Source: a virus
Direction: 5' to 3' (one strand)
DNA length: 33,642 nucleotides
Virus record (IMG/VR): IMGVR_UViG_3300043429_000899
Span: 1 to 33,642 of that record
The notes beneath the pieces are model-generated. The model saw only the letters and a list, made by a program, of their open reading frames with translations. It ran no database searches and was not told the origin of the DNA. Made by a program: the position numbers and the translations under genes. This document shows positions 17,105 through 23,438 of the stretch, one piece after another. Position 1 is the first letter of the stretch. Every line of letters starts with the position of its first letter.

Positions 17105-17133
17105 TTGACAAGTAGAAAAAAGACCTATATACT
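17105..17133 (+). promoter_or_regulatory. strong consensus promoter of the large RNA region
   Basis: TTGACA (17105-17110), 17 bases, TATACT (17128-17133). Transcription should start near 17140. No ribosome site and gene follow for over 3.5 kb, so the main product must be RNA. Confidence 0.85.
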
Positions 17134-17240: not shown

Positions 17241-17982
17241 AGAAATGTTTCGATGAAAGTGTCGGTCTCAACACACTCACTACAAATTGGGTGATGTGAG
17301 TGTTAACCCAGTCAAGGCGCGATGAATCACTTTCTTAGAGACCATTGTACACACTTGTTTGTTGGTGTGTGCGATGAACGGTCAACAAACTTTGCATCGG
17401 CTGTGCGGGGGTTTGATGCGAGATTAAATCATTTGTATAAGGTGATTAGCCCGCACCACATTTGCCTCAATAAGAAAAAAGTTGTGATACTATAATCACA
17501 TTACCACTGATGATTCGAAGTTGCTCTTCGATGAAACATTCATTGAATGTATGGTATAGCAACAGGTGAAGCGAAAGATTCATCTGTCAGAAATAAGGTA
17601 CAGTGATGTGCTGAAAGAACAATAGCCACAAAGGTTGTTCACCATGAAAATGGTTTCACTATACAAGCCGACACGCCATGAGGCGATGCTTCAGTTTCAT
17701 GCTTCCATGGAACTAAGTTGAGAACGACTGGTGAATGAAACCTGCACAGAGCCGCTCGGTGAGTGTAGAATCTAACGGGAGTTAGATAGTTCACAATCCA
17801 ACAGTCGCAACGATGGTGAATCGGTAGTGCTTCAAGTTCGAACCTTAGCGGGCAAGGGCGGAAGTGCAACATGAGAGGTTTCGAGAGAAATCGCGAAATG
17901 TGCTTGCGAAAATGTAGTCTTAGCGGACGAAAAGCAAGAGGAAGTCGGGTAGTATTCTGTCACTCAAAAGGTAATGGAACTA

Positions 17983-18099
17983 CGAGCCTGCTCGACTTTA
18001 GTGGCGTAACTTTGTAGCCGAATGGTAAGGCAACTGTATTTGGGACAGTCGATTATTGGTTCAATTCCAATCTAAGAATCTAACGCAAAGTCAGGCTCG
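17983..18099 (+). ncRNA. tRNA-like domain embedded in the large RNA
   Basis: Closing helix CGAGCCTG/CAGGCTCG (17983-17990 with 18092-18099) stacks on ACTTTG/CAAAGT (18009-18014 with 18086-18091). Inside are a 3-bp D-like arm (18017-18019/18029-18031), a 5-bp anticodon-like arm ACTGT/ACAGT with 7-base loop ATTTGGG (18033-18049, reading TTG at positions 34-36), and a perfect T-like arm ATTGG-TTCAATT-CCAAT (18055-18071). Unlike a tRNA, 14 bases separate the T arm from the acceptor strand, and no CCA end follows. Confidence 0.6.
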
Positions 18100-18422
18100 G
18101 TAGTAAGTGAAAATGGCATAATGCTTCACATCTTCGGATGAATGAAGTCACTGCAAAACTCGCAAGGTGAAGTGGTGTTGATGGGAAACTGCAAGTATGG
18201 GGTCGAACCCTTAACTGCTCGCAAGGCAGACTGAATGAGAACCGTTGAATAGCTTACTATGACAGTGGAATCGCCACCACTTTAATCAAGGCTGCCATGT
18301 TGATGAACTAGTCTGCTGTCGAAAGATGGGGATTAGTGGATAAGTCGGGAATACTCTGCAACGAGAAATAATCCGCACGAATGCATTGACACAGAAAGGT
18401 GTAATCTCAACCTTCTATCTCT

Positions 18423-18491: not shown

Positions 18492-18567
18492 GCGGGATTA
18501 ACTCAGTTGGTAGAGTAGAAGTTTTCCAAACTTCCTGTCGCAGGTTCGAATCCTGTATCCCGCTCCA
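18492..18567 (+). tRNA. tRNA-Gly(TCC)
   Basis: Cloverleaf with acceptor GCGGGAT/ATCCCGC, anticodon stem GAAGT/ACTTC with loop TTTCCAA, T arm CAGG-TTCGAAT-CCTG and encoded CCA. Reads GGA. Confidence 0.93.
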
Positions 18568-18573
18568 AATCGC

Positions 18574-18649
18574 GCTGTCTTAGCTCAGTTGGTAGAGCAC
18601 CTGTTTTGTAATCAGGATGTCGTGAGTTCGATTCCCACAGACAGCACCA
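18574..18649 (+). tRNA. tRNA-Thr(TGT)
   Basis: Acceptor GCTGTCT/AGACAGC, anticodon loop TTTGTAA (one T-T mismatch at the top of the stem), standard T arm and encoded CCA. Reads ACA. Confidence 0.92.
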
Positions 18650-18654
18650 AATTT

Positions 18655-18730
18655 GGGTCCTTAGCTCATTTGGGAGAGCAGTAGCTTTGCAAGCTTCAGG
18701 TGGTCGGTTCGAACCCGACAGGATCCACCA
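18655..18730 (+). tRNA. tRNA-Ala(TGC)
   Basis: Acceptor GGGTCCT/AGGATCC with one G-T pair, anticodon loop TTTGCAA, T arm TCGG-TTCGAAC-CCGA, encoded CCA. Reads GCA. Confidence 0.9.
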
Positions 18731-18736
18731 AACAAT

Positions 18737-18819
18737 GCGACTGTGGTGGAATTGGCAGACACTCTGGATTTAGGTTCCAGTGCTTCGGCGTGAGAGTTCG
18801 ACTCTCTCCAGTCGTACCA
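18737..18819 (+). tRNA. tRNA-Leu(TAG)
   Basis: Acceptor GCGACTG/CAGTCGT, anticodon stem CTGGA/TCCAG with loop TTTAGGT, a class II variable arm (TGCTTCGGCGT) and encoded CCA. It is the only Leu tRNA here with a normal long variable arm. Confidence 0.93.
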
Positions 18820-18838
18820 TTATTTGTTATCTGACTAA

Positions 18839-18914
18839 GGGTAGTTAGCTCAATTGGCAGAGTTCTGGTCTCCAAAACCAGCGGTTGTAGGTTCGAGTCC
18901 TACACTGCCCGCCA
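18839..18914 (+). tRNA. tRNA-Trp(CCA)
   Basis: Acceptor GGGTAGT/ACTGCCC, anticodon stem CTGGT/ACCAG with loop CTCCAAA, T arm TGTAG-GTTCGAGTC-CTACA and encoded CCA. Confidence 0.93.
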
Positions 18915-19011
18915 ATAAAAATGCACCGCGGCATTCGCGAGGAGTACACGGCGTGGAGGATGGAGACAAGAACTTCATTTGAAATGGGTGCCTAACAATG
19001 CAAAATTACAA
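18915..19011 (+). other. 97-base inter-tRNA segment with partial RNA structure
   Basis: GC-rich spacer much longer than the usual 6-7 bases. GCACC/GGTGC (18923-18927 with 18987-18991) could close a domain holding the CGCG-GCATT-CGCG hairpin. No tRNA arms and no reading frame. T4 also encodes non-tRNA stable RNAs (species 1 and 2) in its tRNA cluster; this may be an analogue. Confidence 0.4.
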
Positions 19012-19088
19012 CGGGGTGTAGCTCAGTCTGGCAGAGCACTTGCTTTGGGAGCAAGATGTCCTAGGTTCGAATCCTAGTATCCCGACCA
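19012..19088 (+). tRNA. tRNA-Pro(TGG)
   Basis: Acceptor CGGGGTG/TATCCCG (two G-T pairs), anticodon stem CTTGC/GCAAG with loop TTTGGGA, T arm CTAGG-TTCGAAT-CCTAG, encoded CCA. Confidence 0.93.
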
Positions 19089-19187
19089 ATTAAAGAGAGC
19101 AGTAGCCAAGACGCGAATATTGGTGACTTTACTAAACTGCTTTTATTTCGGTAATGCACACGCGATGCGTCAACCGAACAATTTAAT
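19089..19187 (+). other. 99-base inter-tRNA segment with two stem-loops
   Basis: Stem AGCAGT/ACTGCT (19098-19103 with 19136-19141) encloses CCAA/TTGG and is followed by TTTATTT, like an intrinsic terminator. A second stem TTCGGT/ACCGAA (19147-19152 with 19173-19178) follows, and GACGC/GCGTC could join the two loops. Candidate small RNA or array-internal attenuator. Confidence 0.45.
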
Positions 19188-19262
19188 GCAGGTGTAACTC
19201 AGCGGTAGAGTTCTTCGTTGCCAACGAAGATGTCGAGAGTTCGAATCTCTTCACCTGCTCCA
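19188..19262 (+). tRNA. tRNA-Gly(GCC)
   Basis: Acceptor GCAGGTG/CACCTGC, anticodon stem CTTCG/CGAAG with loop TTGCCAA, encoded CCA. Reads GGC/GGT. Confidence 0.93.
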
Positions 19263-19269
19263 AATTTAA

Positions 19270-19344
19270 TGCGCGGTATATCAGTGGCAGATTGTCAGTC
19301 TCATAAGCTGGAGGTCGGTGGTTCGAATCCATCCTGCGCAACCA
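19270..19344 (+). tRNA. tRNA with CAT anticodon (Met; identity uncertain)
   Basis: Acceptor TGCGCGG/CTGCGCA with a weak T1-A72 first pair, loop CTCATAA, stem TCAGT/GCTGG, encoded CCA. The 3' half (GCGCAACCA) resembles initiator tRNA, but the three G-C pairs of initiator anticodon stems are absent. Confidence 0.85.
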
Positions 19345-19394
19345 ATTAAAGTAACATAAACAATTTTTTATTTTCGTTTTTCAACTCAAAGTAT

Positions 19395-19402
19395 TATAAA
19401 TA
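19395..19402 (+). promoter_or_regulatory. T4-type late promoter octamer
   Basis: TATAAATA in an AT-rich gap after the first tRNA block. It would start transcription near 19408, before a terminator at 19565. The interval 19345-19617 has no convincing gene. Confidence 0.55.
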
Positions 19403-19564
19403 AATCTATGAACACCAATTTATTCTCCTGCCAATCACGCAATCACACACGAATCATGAATTCGGTGATGGTCAGCTTTGGCTATAGAATTGATGGCGAG
19501 AAACCACAGGACTATAACGGGGTTTTAAGGTAAGAAAATCTAATACGATTTTTGGCACACTTAG

Positions 19565-19596
19565 AACCCTTGGATTAAATTCAAGGGTTTTTTATT
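19565..19596 (+). terminator. intrinsic terminator of the first tRNA block
   Basis: AACCCTTG/CAAGGGTT (19565-19572 with 19582-19589), 9-base loop, then TTTTTATTT. Ends the block that begins at 17140/18423. Confidence 0.85.
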
Positions 19597-19617
19597 TGGT
19601 AATCGTAAACAAATCGC

Positions 19618-19646
19618 TTGACAGGTAAACATAAAGTGTTTATACT
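19618..19646 (+). promoter_or_regulatory. consensus promoter for the second tRNA block
   Basis: TTGACA (19618-19623), 17 bases, TATACT (19641-19646), 20 bases after the terminator. Same hexamers as the 17105 promoter. Start near 19653. Confidence 0.8.
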
Positions 19647-19652
19647 GTTAAT

Positions 19653-19786
19653 CAATGAATAACGAAGCGCAAACAATGCTTCGTGAACACCGCGGTTGTC
19701 GAATCAGCCGCACCGCTATCCGCAATGGTAGCAATTCCCGCCGAGAGGTGGTATGAGGTTTGCTGTGTTCCTTACAAAAACACAGC
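19653..19786 (+). ncRNA. candidate small structured RNA
   Basis: Starts at the predicted start of the 19618 promoter. Hairpins: GAAGC/GCTTC; GCGG/CCGC (19692-19695 with 19708-19711); GCTATC/GGTAGC (19715-19720 with 19727-19732); and an 8-bp GCTGTGTT/AACACAGC (19762-19769 with 19779-19786) at the end. No reading frame with a ribosome site. Confidence 0.45.
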
Positions 19787-19790
19787 ACTT

Positions 19791-19880
19791 ATAATTGAAT
19801 GCATTATGCTGGTGTAACTGACGAGTTATCGCACAACTTTAGAGTTGAGAGGTTCGATTCCGAATAGTGTGTTCAATTAT
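19791..19880 (+). ncRNA. tRNA-like RNA with a 17-bp acceptor helix
   Basis: Arms 19791-19807 and 19864-19880 pair over 17 consecutive positions (three G-U). Inside are two 5-bp hairpins with 4-base loops (TAACT-GACG-AGTTA and CAACT-TTAG-AGTTG) and a T-loop-like GG-TTCGATT-CC. The order copies D, anticodon and T arms, but the loops cannot present a 7-base anticodon and no CCA follows. Confidence 0.55.
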
Positions 19881-19886
19881 GTGTAA

Positions 19887-19969
19887 GGGAAGTTAAAGCT
19901 GATGGTTTCAGCGGGCAGTCTGTAAAACTGCGCCTTCGGGGAGTGGTTCGATTCCACAACTTCTCACCA
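19887..19969 (+). tRNA. tRNA-Tyr(GTA)
   Basis: Class II tRNA: acceptor GGGAAGT/ACTTCTC, anticodon stem GCAGT/ACTGC with loop CTGTAAA, variable arm GCGCCTTCGGGG region, encoded CCA. Confidence 0.92.
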
Positions 19970-19975
19970 ATTTAT

Positions 19976-20050
19976 GCACCATTCGTCTAACGGTGAGGAC
20001 GCAAGACTTTCAATCTTGAAATAGGGGTTCGATTCCCCTATGGTGTACCA
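19976..20050 (+). tRNA. tRNA-Glu(TTC)
   Basis: Acceptor GCACCAT/ATGGTGT, anticodon stem CAAGA/TCTTG with loop CTTTCAA, T arm AGGGG-TTCGATT-CCCCT, encoded CCA. Confidence 0.93.
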
Positions 20051-20055
20051 AATTC

Positions 20056-20130
20056 GCTCTGATGGCCAAGTGGTAAGGCACTTCCTTGGTAAGGAAGAGA
20101 CCGCAAGTTCGAACCTTGCTCAGAGCACCA
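20056..20130 (+). tRNA. tRNA-Thr(GGT)
   Basis: Acceptor GCTCTGA/TCAGAGC, anticodon stem CTTCC/GGAAG with loop TTGGTAA, encoded CCA. Reads ACC/ACT. Confidence 0.93.
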
Positions 20131-20143
20131 ATTAGAGGTTTGT

Positions 20144-20293
20144 ATGACTGTAGATAAGATTCACAATCTTATGGTCTGTGAATGTAGATACTGTAAAGAA
20201 TACTGGAATACAGTATGGAAAGATTCTGTATCTCATAGAACTCTCGAAAGAAATACAGGAAAAATATTCATCTTGAAAACAATGCGCTCGTAG
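20144..20293 (+). CDS. small Cys-containing protein inside the tRNA array, 49 aa
   Basis: ATG 20144 after TAGAGG. The sequence has CECRYC followed by a basic helical part, so a small metal-binding protein is possible. It stops at TAG 20291-20293, which are bases 8-10 of the next tRNA-Arg, so the last residues (MRS) are read from the tRNA 5' strand. The 20131-20283 gap is otherwise unexplained. Confidence 0.5.
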   Translation: MTVDKIHNLMVCECRYCKEYWNTVWKDSVSHRTLERNTGKIFILKTMRS

Positions 20294-20360
20294 CTCAACT
20301 GGACAGAGCAATAGGCTACGAACTTATAGGTTGGGAGTTCAAATCTCTCCGAGCGTGCCA
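20284..20360 (+). tRNA. tRNA-Arg(ACG)
   Basis: Acceptor GCGCTCG/CGAGCGT, loop CTACGAA, T arm GGGAG-TTCAAAT-CTCTC(C), encoded CCA. Its 5' part and spacer are identical over about 34 bases to those of tRNA-Arg(TCT) at 22492. Decoding of CGU/C/A would need host A34 deamination. Confidence 0.92.
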
Positions 20361-20366
20361 AAATTT

Positions 20367-20458
20367 GGAAGAGTGCCAGAGTCCGGTTTATTGGAACAGT
20401 CTTGAAAACTGTCGGCCCCTAAAAAGGTCCGTGGGTTCAAATCCCACTTCTTCCGCCA
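20367..20458 (+). tRNA. tRNA-Ser(TGA)
   Basis: Class II: acceptor GGAAGAG/TTCTTCC, anticodon stem ACAGT/ACTGT with loop CTTGAAA, long variable arm with a CCCCTAAAAAGG hairpin, encoded CCA. Confidence 0.93.
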
Positions 20459-20464
20459 AATTAT

Positions 20465-20538
20465 TGCTTCGTAGCTCAACGGTAGAGCACACGGCTGATA
20501 ACCGTAAGACACAAGTTCGATTCTTGTCGAAGCAACCA
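20465..20538 (+). tRNA. tRNA-Ile(GAT)
   Basis: Acceptor TGCTTCG/CGAAGCA, D stem GCTC/GAGC, loop CTGATAA, T arm ACAAG-TTCGATT-CTTGT, encoded CCA. Start set at T 20465 because this gives a full 7-bp acceptor and a proper discriminator. Confidence 0.9.
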
Positions 20539-20540
20539 GT

Positions 20541-20637
20541 TTATCCAGTGCGCTTGCAAGTGCGCCAGAAGTCCGAGACGCGAAAGTGGAGTAGGCAAAC
20601 AAATGCTGGTGTAGTGGTTGGATTCCACTCTGGATAA
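20541..20637 (+). ncRNA. tRNA-like RNA with enlarged anticodon-position arm
   Basis: Ends pair perfectly (TTATCCAG/CTGGATAA, 20541-20548 with 20630-20637). A 5-bp T-like arm AGTGG-TTGGATT-CCACT (20613-20629) abuts the 3' strand exactly as in tRNA. A GCGC/GCGC arm sits in the D position and CCAG/CTGG (20565-20568 with 20606-20609) encloses a 37-base loop region. The T loop lacks TTC and there is no CCA. Confidence 0.55.
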
Positions 20638-20646
20638 TTTTACAAT

Positions 20647-20724
20647 GGTCCGTGAGTCTGCTTGGTGTGGATGCCTGCCTGTCGCGCAGGACATAGATGG
20701 GTTCGAAACCCATACGGACCGCCA
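20647..20724 (+). tRNA. tRNA-Asp(GTC)
   Basis: Acceptor GGTCCGT/ACGGACC, anticodon stem CCTGC/GCAGG with loop CTGTCGC, T arm ATGGG-TTCGAAA-CCCAT, encoded CCA. Confidence 0.93.
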
Positions 20725-20745
20725 ATTTCAACAAAGGAGATATAA

Positions 20746-21003
20746 ATGAATAAGCGTTTTGTAATTCTGGTTGTCGCGGCACTTTCTTTGACTGCTTGTA
20801 CAGATGCCGCTCGAAGCAAGCTAACTAACTATGGTTCGCCTGCGCGTGTGCAATGTTACTCTGGCGGCAAACTGATTTATGACGGCGTTTCGACAGGCAA
20901 ATTGATGGAAACGGCCGATTCAGATGGTTACAATTTGCGCGATAACAAGACGAATGACCTTGTTCAAGTAACAGGTGACTGCGTGGTCACCTATCTCGAT
21001 TAA
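20746..21003 (+). CDS. predicted lipoprotein within the tRNA array, 85 aa
   Basis: ATG 20746 after AAAGGAGA, the best ribosome site in the array. Signal MNKRF, a hydrophobic stretch and lipobox LTAC (about residues 15-18). The mature part has RVQCYSGGKLIYDGVSTGK, SDGYNLRDNKTNDLVQVTGDC and ends VVTYLD, a pattern I know from small lipoproteins of many phages and prophages, often near lysis or exclusion genes. It differs from the 1153 lipoprotein but has a similar layout. An envelope role is likely; precise function unknown. Confidence 0.8.
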   Translation: MNKRFVILVVAALSLTACTDAARSKLTNYGSPARVQCYSGGKLIYDGVSTGKLMETADSDGYNLRDNKTNDLVQVTGDCVVTYLD

Positions 21004-21009
21004 TTTTTC

Positions 21010-21086
21010 GGAACGGTAGCTCAGCTGGTAGTAGCAACAGACTTTTAATCTGAAGGTCGTGGGTTCGACTCCCACTCGTTCCACCA
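21010..21086 (+). tRNA. tRNA-Lys(TTT)
   Basis: Acceptor GGAACGG/TCGTTCC, anticodon stem CAGA/TCTG with loop CTTTTAA, T arm GTGGG-TTCGACT-CCCAC, encoded CCA. Starts 7 bases after the lipoprotein stop. Confidence 0.93.
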
Positions 21087-21092
21087 AATCAT

Positions 21093-21167
21093 GGACTATT
21101 AGCACAGCGGTAGTGCAACGGACTGTTAATCCGTCGGTCACAGGTTCGAATCCTGTATAGTCCGCCA
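21093..21167 (+). tRNA. tRNA-Asn(GTT)
   Basis: Acceptor GGACTAT/ATAGTCC, anticodon stem CGGA/TCCG with loop CTGTTAA, T arm ACAGG-TTCGAAT-CCTGT, encoded CCA. Confidence 0.93.
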
Positions 21168-21168
21168 A

Positions 21169-21328
21169 TTTGAGACAGTCGCGGCGGAGTTGCCACTCCA
21201 AAGTGACTGGTTGTATGGTGTATGGATGCACTCTGCGCCTAGTAGTCAAAGTTGACGGAATGGCAATTCCTGATGAAGTGATGAAAAGCGCGGCGGATTG
21301 GGTTCGAATCCCATTGCATTTGCTCAAA
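21169..21328 (+). ncRNA. 160-base RNA element with a T-arm-like module
   Basis: Ends pair TTTGAG/CTCAAA (21169-21174 with 21323-21328). A tRNA-like T arm TGGG-TTCGAAT-CCCA lies at 21299-21313 but 9 bases separate it from the closing strand. Other hairpins: CAGTC/GACTG enclosing GGAGT-TGCC-ACTCC, GTCAA-AG-TTGAC, and GGAAT/ATTCC. It occupies a tRNA slot in the array but cannot fold as a tRNA. Confidence 0.5.
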
Positions 21329-21336
21329 CAATTTAT

Positions 21337-21413
21337 AGGGGTGTCGCCAAGTTGGTTAAGGCACAAGACTTTGATTCTTGCAATCGTAGGTTCGAATCCT
21401 ACCACCTCTGCCA
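21337..21413 (+). tRNA. tRNA-Gln(TTG)
   Basis: Acceptor AGGGGTG/CACCTCT, anticodon loop CTTTGAT, T arm GTAGG-TTCGAAT-CCTAC, encoded CCA. Confidence 0.92.
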
Positions 21414-21419
21414 AACAAT

Positions 21420-21488
21420 GAGTAGATAGTTTCAAGTAAAATGCCAGTTCGCGACTGCGTTGTTGGTTCATGTCCAACTCTACTCACC
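21420..21488 (+). pseudogene. degenerate tRNA or tRNA-like RNA
   Basis: Acceptor GAGTAGA/TCTACTC and T arm GTTGG-TTCATGT-CCAAC are intact, but the D loop is short (CAAGTA, no GG), the anticodon arm pairs as CAGT-TCGCG-ACTG with a 5-base loop, and the 3' end is ACCT instead of ACCA. Either a decayed tRNA (CGC, Ala, if the loop opens) or a member of the array's tRNA-like RNAs. Confidence 0.55.
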
Positions 21489-21496
21489 TAAACAGT

Positions 21497-21571
21497 GGTG
21501 ATTATAGCTCAATGGTAGAGCAATGCACTGTGAATGCATCGGTTCGGGTTCGACTCCCGATATTCACCCCA
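21497..21571 (+). tRNA. tRNA-His(GTG)
   Basis: Includes the His-specific G-1 opposite C73, one mismatch in the acceptor, anticodon stem TGCA/TGCA with loop CTGTGAA, T arm TCGGG-TTCGACT-CCCGA and encoded CCA. Confidence 0.9.
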
Positions 21572-21576
21572 AACAC

Positions 21577-21653
21577 GGCTAGATAGCACAGTTGGTAGTT
21601 GCGTCTCTTTCATACGGAGAATGTCACAGGTTCGAATCCTGTTCTAGCCACCA
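21577..21653 (+). tRNA. tRNA-Met(CAT), elongator-like
   Basis: Acceptor GGCTAGA/TCTAGCC and the GTCACAGGTTCGAATCC 3' half resemble elongator tRNA-Met. Loop TTCATAC, anticodon stem TCTCT/GGAGA with a G-T pair, encoded CCA. Confidence 0.88.
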
Positions 21654-21659
21654 AACAAT

Positions 21660-21736
21660 GCGAGTGTGATGGAATCGGCATACATACCATTCTTAAACTT
21701 TGGGTTCTGAGAGTTCAAGTCTCTCCACTCGCACCA
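21660..21736 (+). tRNA. tRNA-Leu(TAA) with collapsed variable arm
   Basis: Acceptor GCGAGTG/CACTCGC and T arm GAGAG-TTCAAGT-CTCTC are sound, with Leu-type D region (TGATGGAATCGGCA). The anticodon loop CTTAAAC sits on a poor stem (two T-T mismatches), and only about 5 bases replace the long class II variable arm. CCA is encoded. Function is uncertain. Confidence 0.75.
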
Positions 21737-21744
21737 TAAATAAA

Positions 21745-21837
21745 GGAAAGTTGGACGAGTTGGATTATGTCGGCACCCTGCTAAGGTGTTATCTGTAGAA
21801 ATACGGGTCATGGGTTCGAATCCCATACTTTCCGCCA
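21745..21837 (+). tRNA. tRNA-Ser(GCT)
   Basis: Class II: acceptor GGAAAGT/ACTTTCC, anticodon stem CACC/GGTG with loop CTGCTAA, long variable arm, encoded CCA. A CATAAATA sequence just upstream is one base off the late promoter core. Confidence 0.93.
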
Positions 21838-21854
21838 AACAATTACCGCACTAT

Positions 21855-21983
21855 ATGAAAGAAAAAGATAAACTAGAACAAGAAAGTCTGGACACGACAA
21901 CGCAAGAAGTCAGTGAGGACCAATTGATTGATGAAATCGTAAAATTGACAAGTGAGATTTACGATTTGGATTACGCCAAGTAA
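21855..21983 (+). CDS. small acidic helical protein, 42 aa
   Basis: ATG 21855, with only a weak ribosome site; the TAA stop touches the first base of the next tRNA. The sequence is polar with a C-terminal helix (EDQLIDEIVKLTSEIYDLDY). It fills a gap between tRNAs and may be a real microprotein. Confidence 0.45.
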   Translation: MKEKDKLEQESLDTTTQEVSEDQLIDEIVKLTSEIYDLDYAK

Positions 21984-22058
21984 GTGCCTATAGCTTAGCG
22001 GTAGAGCAAGGGACTCATAATCCTTAGGTCCTAGGTTCGAATCCTAGTAGGCGCACCA
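21984..22058 (+). tRNA. tRNA-Ile2(CAT) candidate
   Basis: Acceptor GTGCCTA/TAGGCGC, anticodon stem AGGGA/TCCTT with loop CTCATAA. The GGGACTCATAATCC core looks like bacterial tRNA-Ile2, whose C34 must be changed to lysidine by TilS to read AUA. Encoded CCA. Confidence 0.85.
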
Positions 22059-22070
22059 ACAAGGAAATAT

Positions 22071-22385
22071 ATGTACACATATCAAGCAAAGGTTTACAAT
22101 GTTGTTGACGGTGATACCGTTGATGTATTAGTTGATTTGGGATTCAAGATATATTCCAAACAACGAATTCGTCTGGCACGTATTGACACTCCCGAGCGCG
22201 GTCAAGAGGGATACGACAAAGCCAAAGACCGACTGAAAGAGTTGGTGCTCGATAAAGATGTAGCTTTGACCACAACGAAACCCAGCAAGTGGGGATACTA
22301 CTTGGGTGAGTTGTTCATACTCAATGAGAATGTAAACAACACTATGCTGTCGGAAGGATTGGCCAGACCAACGGCGTGGCGATGA
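22071..22385 (+). CDS. staphylococcal-nuclease-like (SNase) protein, 104 aa
   Basis: ATG 22071 after AAGGAAA. An SNase/OB fold with N-terminal VVDGDT (D13, D15) and IRLARIDTPE (R34, D39, T40, E42), matching the calcium and phosphate ligands of the family. The second catalytic Arg, usually in a D/K-YGR-Y/L motif, is replaced: the region reads KWGYYLGEL. Length is close to a minimal SNase domain without a signal peptide. It may be a weak or non-catalytic nucleic-acid-binding version. Confidence 0.82.
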   Translation: MYTYQAKVYNVVDGDTVDVLVDLGFKIYSKQRIRLARIDTPERGQEGYDKAKDRLKELVLDKDVALTTTKPSKWGYYLGELFILNENVNNTMLSEGLARPTAWR

Positions 22386-22408
22386 TGGCGGCAAGAAAGA
22401 ATGATTTC

Positions 22409-22484
22409 GCTTCGGTAGCTCAGTTGGTAGAGCACTAGACTGAAAATCTAGGTGTCGCCGGTTCGATTCCGGCTCGAAGCACCA
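22409..22484 (+). tRNA. tRNA-Phe(GAA)
   Basis: Acceptor GCTTCGG/TCGAAGC, anticodon stem TAGA/TCTA with loop CTGAAAA, T arm GCCGG-TTCGATT-CCGGC, encoded CCA. Confidence 0.93.
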
Positions 22485-22491
22485 GAACAAT

Positions 22492-22568
22492 GCGCTCGTA
22501 GCTCAACTGGACAGAGCAAGGGACTTCTACTCCCTAGGTTGAGGGTTCGAATCCTTCCGGGCGCGCCA
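22492..22568 (+). tRNA. tRNA-Arg(TCT)
   Basis: Acceptor GCGCTCG/CGGGCGC, anticodon stem AGGGA/TCCCT with loop CTTCTAC, encoded CCA. The first 27 bases and upstream spacer equal those of tRNA-Arg(ACG) at 20284. Confidence 0.93.
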
Positions 22569-22575
22569 TAAATAT

Positions 22576-22649
22576 GTTGAGGTGGCCGAGTGGTTAGGCG
22601 TTGGTCTGCAAAACCAACTACATGGGTTCAATTCCCATTCTCAACTCCA
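22576..22649 (+). tRNA. tRNA-Cys(GCA)
   Basis: Acceptor GTTGAGG/TCTC AAC with one G-T, anticodon stem TTGGT/ACCAA with loop CTGCAAA, T arm ATGGG-TTCAATT-CCCAT, encoded CCA. Confidence 0.92.
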
Positions 22650-22668
22650 AAAAATCATAAGGGGAATT

Positions 22669-22899
22669 ATGATGAAGAGTATACCAGAAAGAGCAACAGA
22701 ATTACTTGAATTTCTTCATTATGAGTACCCAAGAACTGTTAGTATAATTCGACTACATTGGGGTGACCCACAGGCGCAAGTAGTGTTTGAGAACTTGCTG
22801 ACTTACAATCACGCTGAGTCGAAAGACGGATTTAGTTTTCAAGCATTTTCCGCGATAACAGAGTTACAAGAAATCCATGCTCGATTAGCTCAGCGGTAG
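22669..22899 (+). CDS. small protein terminating inside a tRNA, 76 aa
   Basis: ATGs 22669/22672 follow AAGGGG. A helical protein (PERATELLEFLHYEY, QAFSAITELQEIHA) with a middle strand. The reading frame runs 21 bases into tRNA-Val(TAC) and ends at the TAG of its D loop, so the last residues LAQR are encoded by the tRNA D arm. No family recognised. Confidence 0.6.
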   Translation: MMKSIPERATELLEFLHYEYPRTVSIIRLHWGDPQAQVVFENLLTYNHAESKDGFSFQAFSAITELQEIHARLAQR

Positions 22900-22953
22900 A
22901 GCGTCTCCTTTACACGGAGAGGGTCGGCGGTTCGAACCCGTCATCGAGCACCA
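22879..22953 (+). tRNA. tRNA-Val(TAC)
   Basis: Acceptor GCTCGAT/ATCGAGC, anticodon stem CTCC/GGAG with loop TTTACAC, encoded CCA. Its first 21 bases are also the end of the preceding gene. Confidence 0.93.
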
Positions 22954-22959
22954 ACATTT

Positions 22960-23033
22960 GCTCTCGTAGTTAAATGGTAGAACGGTTGTTTCGTAATCAA
23001 CGGATAAAGGTTCGATTCCTTTCGAGAGCACCA
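22960..23033 (+). tRNA. tRNA-Thr(CGT)
   Basis: Acceptor GCTCTCG/CGAGAGC, anticodon stem GTTGT/TCAAC with a T-T mismatch, loop TTCGTAA, encoded CCA. Third Thr tRNA, reading ACG. Confidence 0.9.
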
Positions 23034-23044
23034 AGAAGGTTATT

Positions 23045-23224
23045 ATGATAGAGGTCACAAAAGTTTTTCAGAGTCCTTGCACTCCTGCTGTCGAAGTTGA
23101 ATATAGTGTCAAGATATCTGACCCAGTAGATTTAGCAAATGTATCCGAGTTTGAAAAACAGTTAATCAAAGACCTTGAAAAGATATACACGGAGAGAATT
23201 TTTGGTTCCTTAGCTCAGCGGTAG
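23045..23224 (+). CDS. small protein terminating inside a tRNA, 59 aa
   Basis: ATG 23045 shortly after AGAAGG. Begins MIEVTKVFQSPCTPAVEVEYSV and continues as a helix (NVSEFEKQLIKDLEKIY). It ends GSLAQR, read from the first 21 bases of tRNA-Val(GAC), and stops at the D-loop TAG, exactly like the gene at 22669. Confidence 0.6.
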   Translation: MIEVTKVFQSPCTPAVEVEYSVKISDPVDLANVSEFEKQLIKDLEKIYTERIFGSLAQR

Positions 23225-23278
23225 AGCATCTCCTTGACATGGAGGAGGTCAGTAGTTCGATCCTACTAGGAACCACCA
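23204..23278 (+). tRNA. tRNA-Val(GAC)
   Basis: Acceptor GGTTCCT/AGGAACC, anticodon stem CTCC/GGAG with loop TTGACAT, T arm AGTAG-TTCGATC-CTACT, encoded CCA. Confidence 0.92.
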
Positions 23279-23287
23279 AATAAATAA

Positions 23288-23322
23288 ATGCAAGTCGAGT
23301 TTACAAAACTTCGATTTTGCAT
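23288..23322 (+). other. stem-loop between tRNA-Val and tRNA-Leu
   Basis: TGCAA...TTGCA encloses TCGAGTTT-ACA-AAAC(T)TCGA, a long stem with one bulged T, in the 84-base AT-rich gap 23279-23362. Possible processing or attenuation signal; a TAAATAAATG run precedes it. Confidence 0.45.
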
Positions 23323-23362
23323 AAAAAATTTATGTAATTATGAGAAATCATAAACCAGTTTT

Positions 23363-23438
23363 GCCCGAGTGATGGAACGGTATACGTGTCTGACTCAAAA
23401 TCAGAATTTTGTGGGTTCGAATCCCACCTTGGGCACCA
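23363..23438 (+). tRNA. tRNA-Leu(CAA) with short variable arm
   Basis: Acceptor GCCCGAG/CTTGGGC, anticodon stem TCTGA/TCAGA with loop CTCAAAA, Leu-type D region (TGATGGAACGGTA), T arm GTGGG-TTCGAAT-CCCAC, encoded CCA. The variable region is only about 5 bases, as in the Leu(TAA) gene, not the long arm normal for Leu. Confidence 0.85.

Follow-up and report, generated by a model that had tools for sequence, protein, structure and literature searches.

The tRNA-like element at positions 17983-18099 of a viral DNA stretch of 33,642 nucleotides (IMG/VR record IMGVR_UViG_3300043429_000899; the whole stretch is called the window here) is a tRNA body embedded in the variable linker of a GOLLD RNA, and comparison with other GOLLD RNAs establishes that such embedded tRNAs are systematically clipped at the acceptor end, that their three arms are under structural selection and that the element is an exchangeable cassette. 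A tRNA in the GOLLD linker has already been published; the clipping, the covariation of the arms, the exchange of cassettes, a bias in the anticodons and a permuted form are added here. Judged from sequence comparison, the element may be a swappable clipped tRNA mimic, which would most likely serve as a decoy against tRNA-targeting host defence; we hold this reading at somewhat below even confidence, and infer protein binding, target and benefit.

Anatomy of the element in the window

The GOLLD 3' conserved domain spans 17940-18413 and matches the Rfam family RF02032 over the full model (1-416 of 416) with 191.7 bits against a cut-off of 150. All features given here lie on the plus strand. Much of 18045-18074 is treated as an insertion in the Rfam alignment and corresponds to the variable linker, within which the D, anticodon and T arms can be read from the sequence. 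An outer helix of 8 bp pairs CGAGCCTG (17983-17990) with CAGGCTCG (18092-18099), and an inner helix of 6 bp, seen in the sequence and in the context fold, pairs ACTTTG (18009-18014) with CAAAGT (18086-18091), the latter belonging to the GCAAAG element conserved in GOLLD. The 14-bp split helix described by the first-pass annotation is thus present as 8 + 6 bp, with its spacings of 18 bases on the 5' side (between the two helices) and 14 bases on the 3' side (between T arm and acceptor helix) exact in the sequence. However, only the outer 8 bp are common among relatives, whereas the inner ACTTTG/CAAAGT helix is not general. Within 18009-18014, CTTTG can alternatively form a residual acceptor with CTAAG (18072-18076), and the two pairings are mutually exclusive.

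The body consists of a D arm GCC-GAATGGTAA-GGC with GG in its loop (18017-18031; sequence and arm parser), an anticodon arm ACTGT-ATTTGGG-ACAGT with U33 and G37 (18033-18049; ARAGORN and arm parser) whose 7-nt loop ATTTGGG presents the anticodon UUG at 18040-18042, and a T arm ATTGG-TTCAATT-CCAAT with A57 (18055-18071; arm parser). U8 A9, A26 and a 5-nt variable loop are further tRNA features. The three arms, confirmed to the base by sequence, ARAGORN and Rfam as they had first been described, carry the canonical loops of a functional tRNA. The acceptor does not form a 7-bp stem: the stub CTTTG/CTAAG is paired at four of five positions, and from the junction outwards there follow a pair, a mismatch, three pairs and then three mismatches. 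The residual 3' strand CTAAG and its tail (18072-18085; sequence and comparison with free tRNAs) end without CCA.

ARAGORN predicts a tRNA-Gln(ttg) at 18009-18078, and covariance scoring, proposed earlier as a check, gives an RF00005 match of 45.1 bits (cut-off 29, E 1.2e-6) with partial coverage, at model positions 3-68 of 71. Energy folding of the isolated 71-mer does not support the cloverleaf (z 0.30, with a different fold as the minimum); in a context of 171 nt the minimum is the cloverleaf closed by ACUUUGU, but with a z of -0.02. The cloverleaf is nevertheless not attributed to chance, because its arms recur and covary at the same spot in other GOLLDs.

The GOLLD RNA lies in a phage tRNA array, with 30 free tRNA genes downstream (18492-23438; ARAGORN), including a separate tRNA-Gln(TTG) at 21337-21413. 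Origin from the phage's own tRNAs was considered and rejected as a recent event: the best match of the body among them is a tRNA-Thr at 71%, and no recent copy is visible. A sigma-70-like sequence TTGACA-17-TATACT (17105-17133; 11 of 12 positions, by consensus match only) is a possible GOLLD promoter, but such sites are no more numerous here than in shuffles. Two Leu-anticodon free tRNAs of the array (21660-21736 and 23363-23438) measure 76-78 nt, each with a short variable loop and an encoded CCA, and similar ones occur in L180, L171, L011, L112, L009 and L158; ordinary bacterial tRNA-Leu is unlike these. Further downstream, between 24247 and 32918, genes match HNH endonuclease, exonuclease, head maturation protease and PhoH-like families.

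Clipping and structural selection among relatives

Relatives were collected through exact 3'-tail patterns in viral contigs and covariance searches, the latter mainly on pattern loci with an upstream CGCAAGG or CGAAAGG motif (36 and 27 records), giving 74 GOLLD 3' domains (66 distinct), counts from which are not population frequencies owing to the exact-pattern sampling. Excluded before counting were L010, L012, L167, four records with no match, three weak matches of 16 bits, and L014, whose tail lies at the end of the available stretch. L020 was retained by eye with no RF02032 match, L018 and L002-L005 score under the Rfam cut-off, and L177, cut at the end of its stretch, is within the 74 but in neither group. 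Bodies were identified with a parser which takes its score from the D, anticodon and T arms, regardless of the acceptor, and which is offset for some of them (L158/L169, L179/L172/L154). It found a tRNA body in 36 of the 74 domains (29 distinct), while 33 have none; four tRNA-derived inserts fall outside its rules, namely L174 (altered T loop, called tRNA-Arg by ARAGORN), the degenerate L013, and the permuted L007 and L019. L041 (Xanthomonas phage XacN1) has two equal-scoring GOLLD matches, at 38570 and 357365, probably a terminal repeat. No GOLLD was found in 101 bacterial genomes from the same class as a Bacillus genome or in five others, an uninformative count, nor by Rfam in 19 genome-contig loci (L021-L039).

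Six additional records came from cultured phages. The body is present in Phaeobacter phage MD18, phage DSS3_MAL1, Mesorhizobium phage Cp1R7A-A1 and Sinorhizobium phage Phosso, in all of which the question of function is testable, and absent from DSS3P8, which has only a hairpin with the loop TTTAGGA, and from Bestia, which has none. Three of these four inserts are annotated in GenBank as tRNA-Arg or tRNA-Leu (L182:2616-2689, L181:2620-2695, L183:1561-1632), although they are GOLLD linker inserts with no CCA; where public phage genomes show an annotated tRNA in this position, the label is probably mistaken.

The control set consisted of free tRNAs from the loci under comparison, run through the identical script; from 340 distinct sequences, 33 unparsed and 21 scoring below 23 were set aside and 286 used. 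An encoded CCA is found in none of the 29 distinct embedded copies, the window's included, against 282 of the 286 free tRNAs, and all seven acceptor pairs in a single embedded copy (L175, still with no CCA) against 215 of 286. The T stem has five pairs in both sets (27/29 embedded, 265/286 free). Across 30 rows the inner four acceptor pairs form in 24 to 27 and covary, whereas the outer three form in 17, 6 and 11. Most relatives retain, next to the body, 4-5 bp of the acceptor that belongs to the tRNA itself. The outer closing helix reaches at least 7 bp in all 30 rows that carried aligned coordinates. The embedded bodies also share a T loop beginning TTCAA (A57; 23/29 against 32/286 free), and for 24 of the 29 the closest body is another embedded one rather than any of 276 free bodies. 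The claim that this is not a processed tRNA is well supported by the missing CCA and the clipped acceptor.

In an alignment of 30 bodies (A1), paired cells make up 99.2% of the D arm, 99.3% of the anticodon arm and 95.3% of the T arm, and changes on both sides are seen in every pair of the anticodon stem (five) and the D stem (four) and in three of the five T pairs. Cells with such changes number 173 against 62.8 in shuffles, a test inflated by related rows. Sliding the partner by 1-3 columns, a control which retains relatedness, lowers paired cells from 87.1% to 34-47%. This pattern of pairing and covariation indicates that selection maintains a tRNA body with a stub of four to five pairs. 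Poor conservation of the arms in relatives, which would have spoken against the element as first described, was looked for and did not occur (95-99% paired).

Exchange of the cassette and other linker forms

Nine GOLLD pairs have 3' domains at least 90% identical, and in six of them the bodies are less than 80% identical (for 3' domain and body, respectively, L112/L076 at 97.9% and 72%, L009/L013 at 97% and 67%, and L150/L135 at 97% and 66%); two of the remaining three have near-identical bodies and one a body at 82%. The reverse also occurs, with identical bodies in L169/L158 and L180/L160, whose 3' domains are 85% and 88% identical, respectively. On a tree of 34 backbones with the cassette removed, amino-acid identity requires 18 changes against 20.4 with shuffled labels, and 14 of 200 label shuffles are as low as 18, indicating that identity is almost unclustered on the backbone; this is a quick tree with weak support at many forks and with some long branches grouped together.

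The anticodon loop diverges most. Among bodies at least 85% alike, its divergence per site is 0.33 in embedded copies (6 pairs) against 0.038 in free tRNAs (56 pairs), and an alignment-based estimate from 10 pairs gives 0.386, the highest of all regions. U33 is nevertheless kept in 28 of 30 rows. The 30 readable anticodons comprise Lys (10), Asn (6), Arg(UCU) (6), Leu (4) and one each of Ser, Gln, His and Thr. The set excludes L179/L154, L018, L166, L007 and L181, which are ambiguous, limited to 6 nt, permuted or almost a copy of another. Y35-U36, corresponding to AAN/AGN codons, occurs in 23 of the 30 loops against 48 of 332 free tRNAs, the embedded rows being related, and U36A37A38 in 23 of 30 against 90 of 283, a comparison whose statistics ignore relatedness. 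Rows are related throughout, and all significance figures are optimistic. The window itself, with Gln UUG and G37, is an exception to the bias.

Two arguments about these anticodons were abandoned. An in-place change of anticodon had been argued from Leu anticodons on bodies with short variable arms, but 12 free Leu-anticodon controls are equally short (76-78 nt); the same argument from Ser rests on one row. A decoy for Lys alone was suggested by a small first sample, mostly Lys, but only 10 of 30 are Lys in the wider set.

The linkers of L007 (4770-4850) and the identical L019 (reverse strand) hold a circularly permuted tRNA, in which a T arm, an acceptor 3' strand with CCA, eight bases, the acceptor 5' strand, the D arm and the anticodon arm follow one another. 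Put into the usual order they give, in this one lineage, a full tRNA with 7/7 acceptor pairs and a Lys CUU-like loop, and the tRNA fold is therefore present there via another topology. These contigs also match alphaproteobacterial tmRNA and permuted-tmRNA models. Among linkers with no tRNA body, an anticodon-like hairpin (stem of at least 5, 7-nt loop, U33, R37; linker borders set by a text rule) occurs in 10 of 27 related rows against 0.6 expected from shuffles. One tRNA-like hairpin is kept in L016, L017, L161, L151 and L184, with loops CTGTTAA, CTATTAA and TTTAGGA; that of L041, one of the ten, is partly wobble-paired, and other 7-nt hairpins in these linkers lack U33. Such hairpin-only linkers, which retain an anticodon-like loop, are a lead.

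Possible roles and known systems

GOLLD is a very large RNA-only cage whose function the structural paper calls unknown (Kretsch et al. 2025, PMC12286853), and a selected, swappable, anticodon-bearing mimic in many linkers provides a concrete handle on its cargo or target. In the proposed reading, a tRNA body has become fixed in the linker, with its acceptor trimmed to about 4-5 bp and no CCA. Because it is clipped, lacks CCA and is sealed in by a GOLLD helix, the mimic should be hardly releasable or chargeable. The cassette would be kept swappable, with the body conserved and the anticodon loop diversifying. Its anticodon arm, well folded, would be offered to a protein that recognises such arms in tRNAs; the most plausible candidates are an anticodon nuclease of the host or another defence factor that targets tRNAs. 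The cassette would act by competition, a decoy alongside the functional tRNAs that the phage encodes. The linker lies inside the 14-mer cage, shown for env-38, where it is not resolved (PMC12286853); if the present RNA assembles like that cryo-EM-solved GOLLD, 14 copies per cage would face the interior.

Known nucleases both encourage and constrain this proposal. AriB of PARIS cleaves tRNALys(UUU), tRNAThr(UGU) and tRNAAsn(GUU), which have UAAU from position 36 in common, and does not cut tRNAGln(UUG); in that study viral tRNAs are proposed as possible competitors that inhibit it (PMC12409363). Of the 30 embedded loops, 23 have U36A37A38. Phage tRNAs likewise counter retron-Eco7 and PrrC170, and a PrrC cleaves tRNALys (PMC11555353). 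A decoy role would fit the loss of the end used in translation, a loop that diversifies and the preference for Lys, Asn, Arg and Ser codon boxes. The window's own UUG with G37, rather than U36AA, does not fit, being unsuited to the best-known nucleases. Against the proposal also stand the absence of the AriB target Thr(UGU) from the 30 embedded anticodons, the interior position of the linker in the solved cage, which by analogy makes access for a large nuclease questionable, and the 33 of 74 GOLLDs without the element. A broader version, which we consider rather doubtful, would have GOLLD cages be in part RNA-built decoy devices, carrying uncharged, unreleasable mimics whose loops were diversified in an arms race with anticodon-recognising nucleases, with the reduced hairpin-only linkers and the permuted tRNA of L007 answering the same demand.

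Alternatively, GOLLD may use the tRNA body as a handle on decode-like sites or on ribosomes, which the cages would then sequester or tag. The pull-down of ribosomes with GOLLD reported by Kretsch et al. (PMC12286853) and the retained 7-nt loops, U33 and D/T-loop motifs speak for this role. It is unlikely, however: with no acceptor end and CCA, binding to the A, P or E site should be weak, a generic handle would not be expected to change its anticodon rapidly, and the same 33 GOLLDs do without it. An equally unlikely suggestion is that the element binds no partner and works as a compact structural spacer or as an insulator of folding. The element has a constant position within the variable linker, a region not resolved in the solved cage (PMC12286853), and the linkers of GOLLDs lacking it are mostly AT-rich there, but a spacer would need neither U33 (28/30), a 7-nt anticodon loop nor restricted anticodons, and the folding energy of the window's copy is no better than that of shuffles. 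Absence from 33 of 74 3' domains also disfavours the folding core proposed initially. The relic proposed beside it, in which tRNA genes of the array drop into the linker and then erode, is quite improbable. The location of GOLLD within a tRNA array, some degenerate copies (L013, L166, L018) and a linker tolerant of change, in which cassettes turn over, agree with such decay, yet the arms are 95-99% paired with compensatory changes, U33 is kept, the same acceptor end is lost throughout, and 24 of 29 embedded bodies are closer to each other than to free tRNAs. An ordinary tRNA-Gln gene overlapping GOLLD and processed out is scarcely credible: ARAGORN and Rfam call it and GenBank annotates counterparts as tRNA-Arg or tRNA-Leu, but CCA and a 7-bp acceptor are absent, the array already has its separate tRNA-Gln(TTG), and the mycobacterial counterpart has no detected expression (PMC6582537). 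Among the three roles first proposed, the sequence comparisons suggest that recruitment of tRNA-binding factors fits best.

Weinberg 2009 reportedly described a GOLLD RNA with a tRNA in its linker, and we take it to be reference 72 of Behra et al. 2019. That reference is cited by the latter for a predicted tRNA in GOLLD, beside a pseudo-tRNA gene within the GOLLD of Mycobacterium aubagnense whose expression was not detected (PMC6582537), and phage tRNAs are stated to lie sometimes in the GOLLD linker (PMC12286853), in agreement with the initial remark that some GOLLD RNAs occur with tRNA segments. These published cases share with the present one the RNA family (RF02032), the linker position and the neighbouring tRNA array, but in the available text they are spoken of as tRNA or pseudo-tRNA, with no mention of clipping, covariation, exchange or anticodon bias. 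The M. aubagnense insert is likewise tRNA-like and not seen as a separate RNA, although the accessible text reads it as a single pseudogene with no comparative analysis. The available portions of PMC9569102, PMC5643018 and PMC7567579 add nothing on the insert, and neither clipping of the acceptor nor exchange of the cassette was found for GOLLD tRNAs in titles and the openings of abstracts, which is weak evidence of absence as subscription literature is mostly outside that search.

Other tRNA-like RNAs resemble the element in part. The L007/L019 linker shares with permuted (two-piece) tmRNA a T arm, acceptor 3' end and CCA placed before the acceptor 5' end and the D and anticodon arms, but it is flanked by GOLLD rather than tmRNA sequence and is confined to one lineage. 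Bacterial Y RNAs, which according to Chen et al. 2014 reportedly carry a tRNA-mimic module, likewise hold a tRNA-like module inside a non-coding RNA, but no Y RNA family of Rfam matches the window. The phage tRNAs active against PARIS AriB (T5), retron-Eco7 and PrrC170 are also tRNA-shaped phage RNAs, some with Lys or Asn anticodons, for which competition has been suggested (PMC12409363, PMC11555353). However, these anti-defence tRNAs are, in the parts of those papers available, complete molecules which replace the cut tRNAs in translation, whereas the GOLLD mimic lacks the end required to do so.
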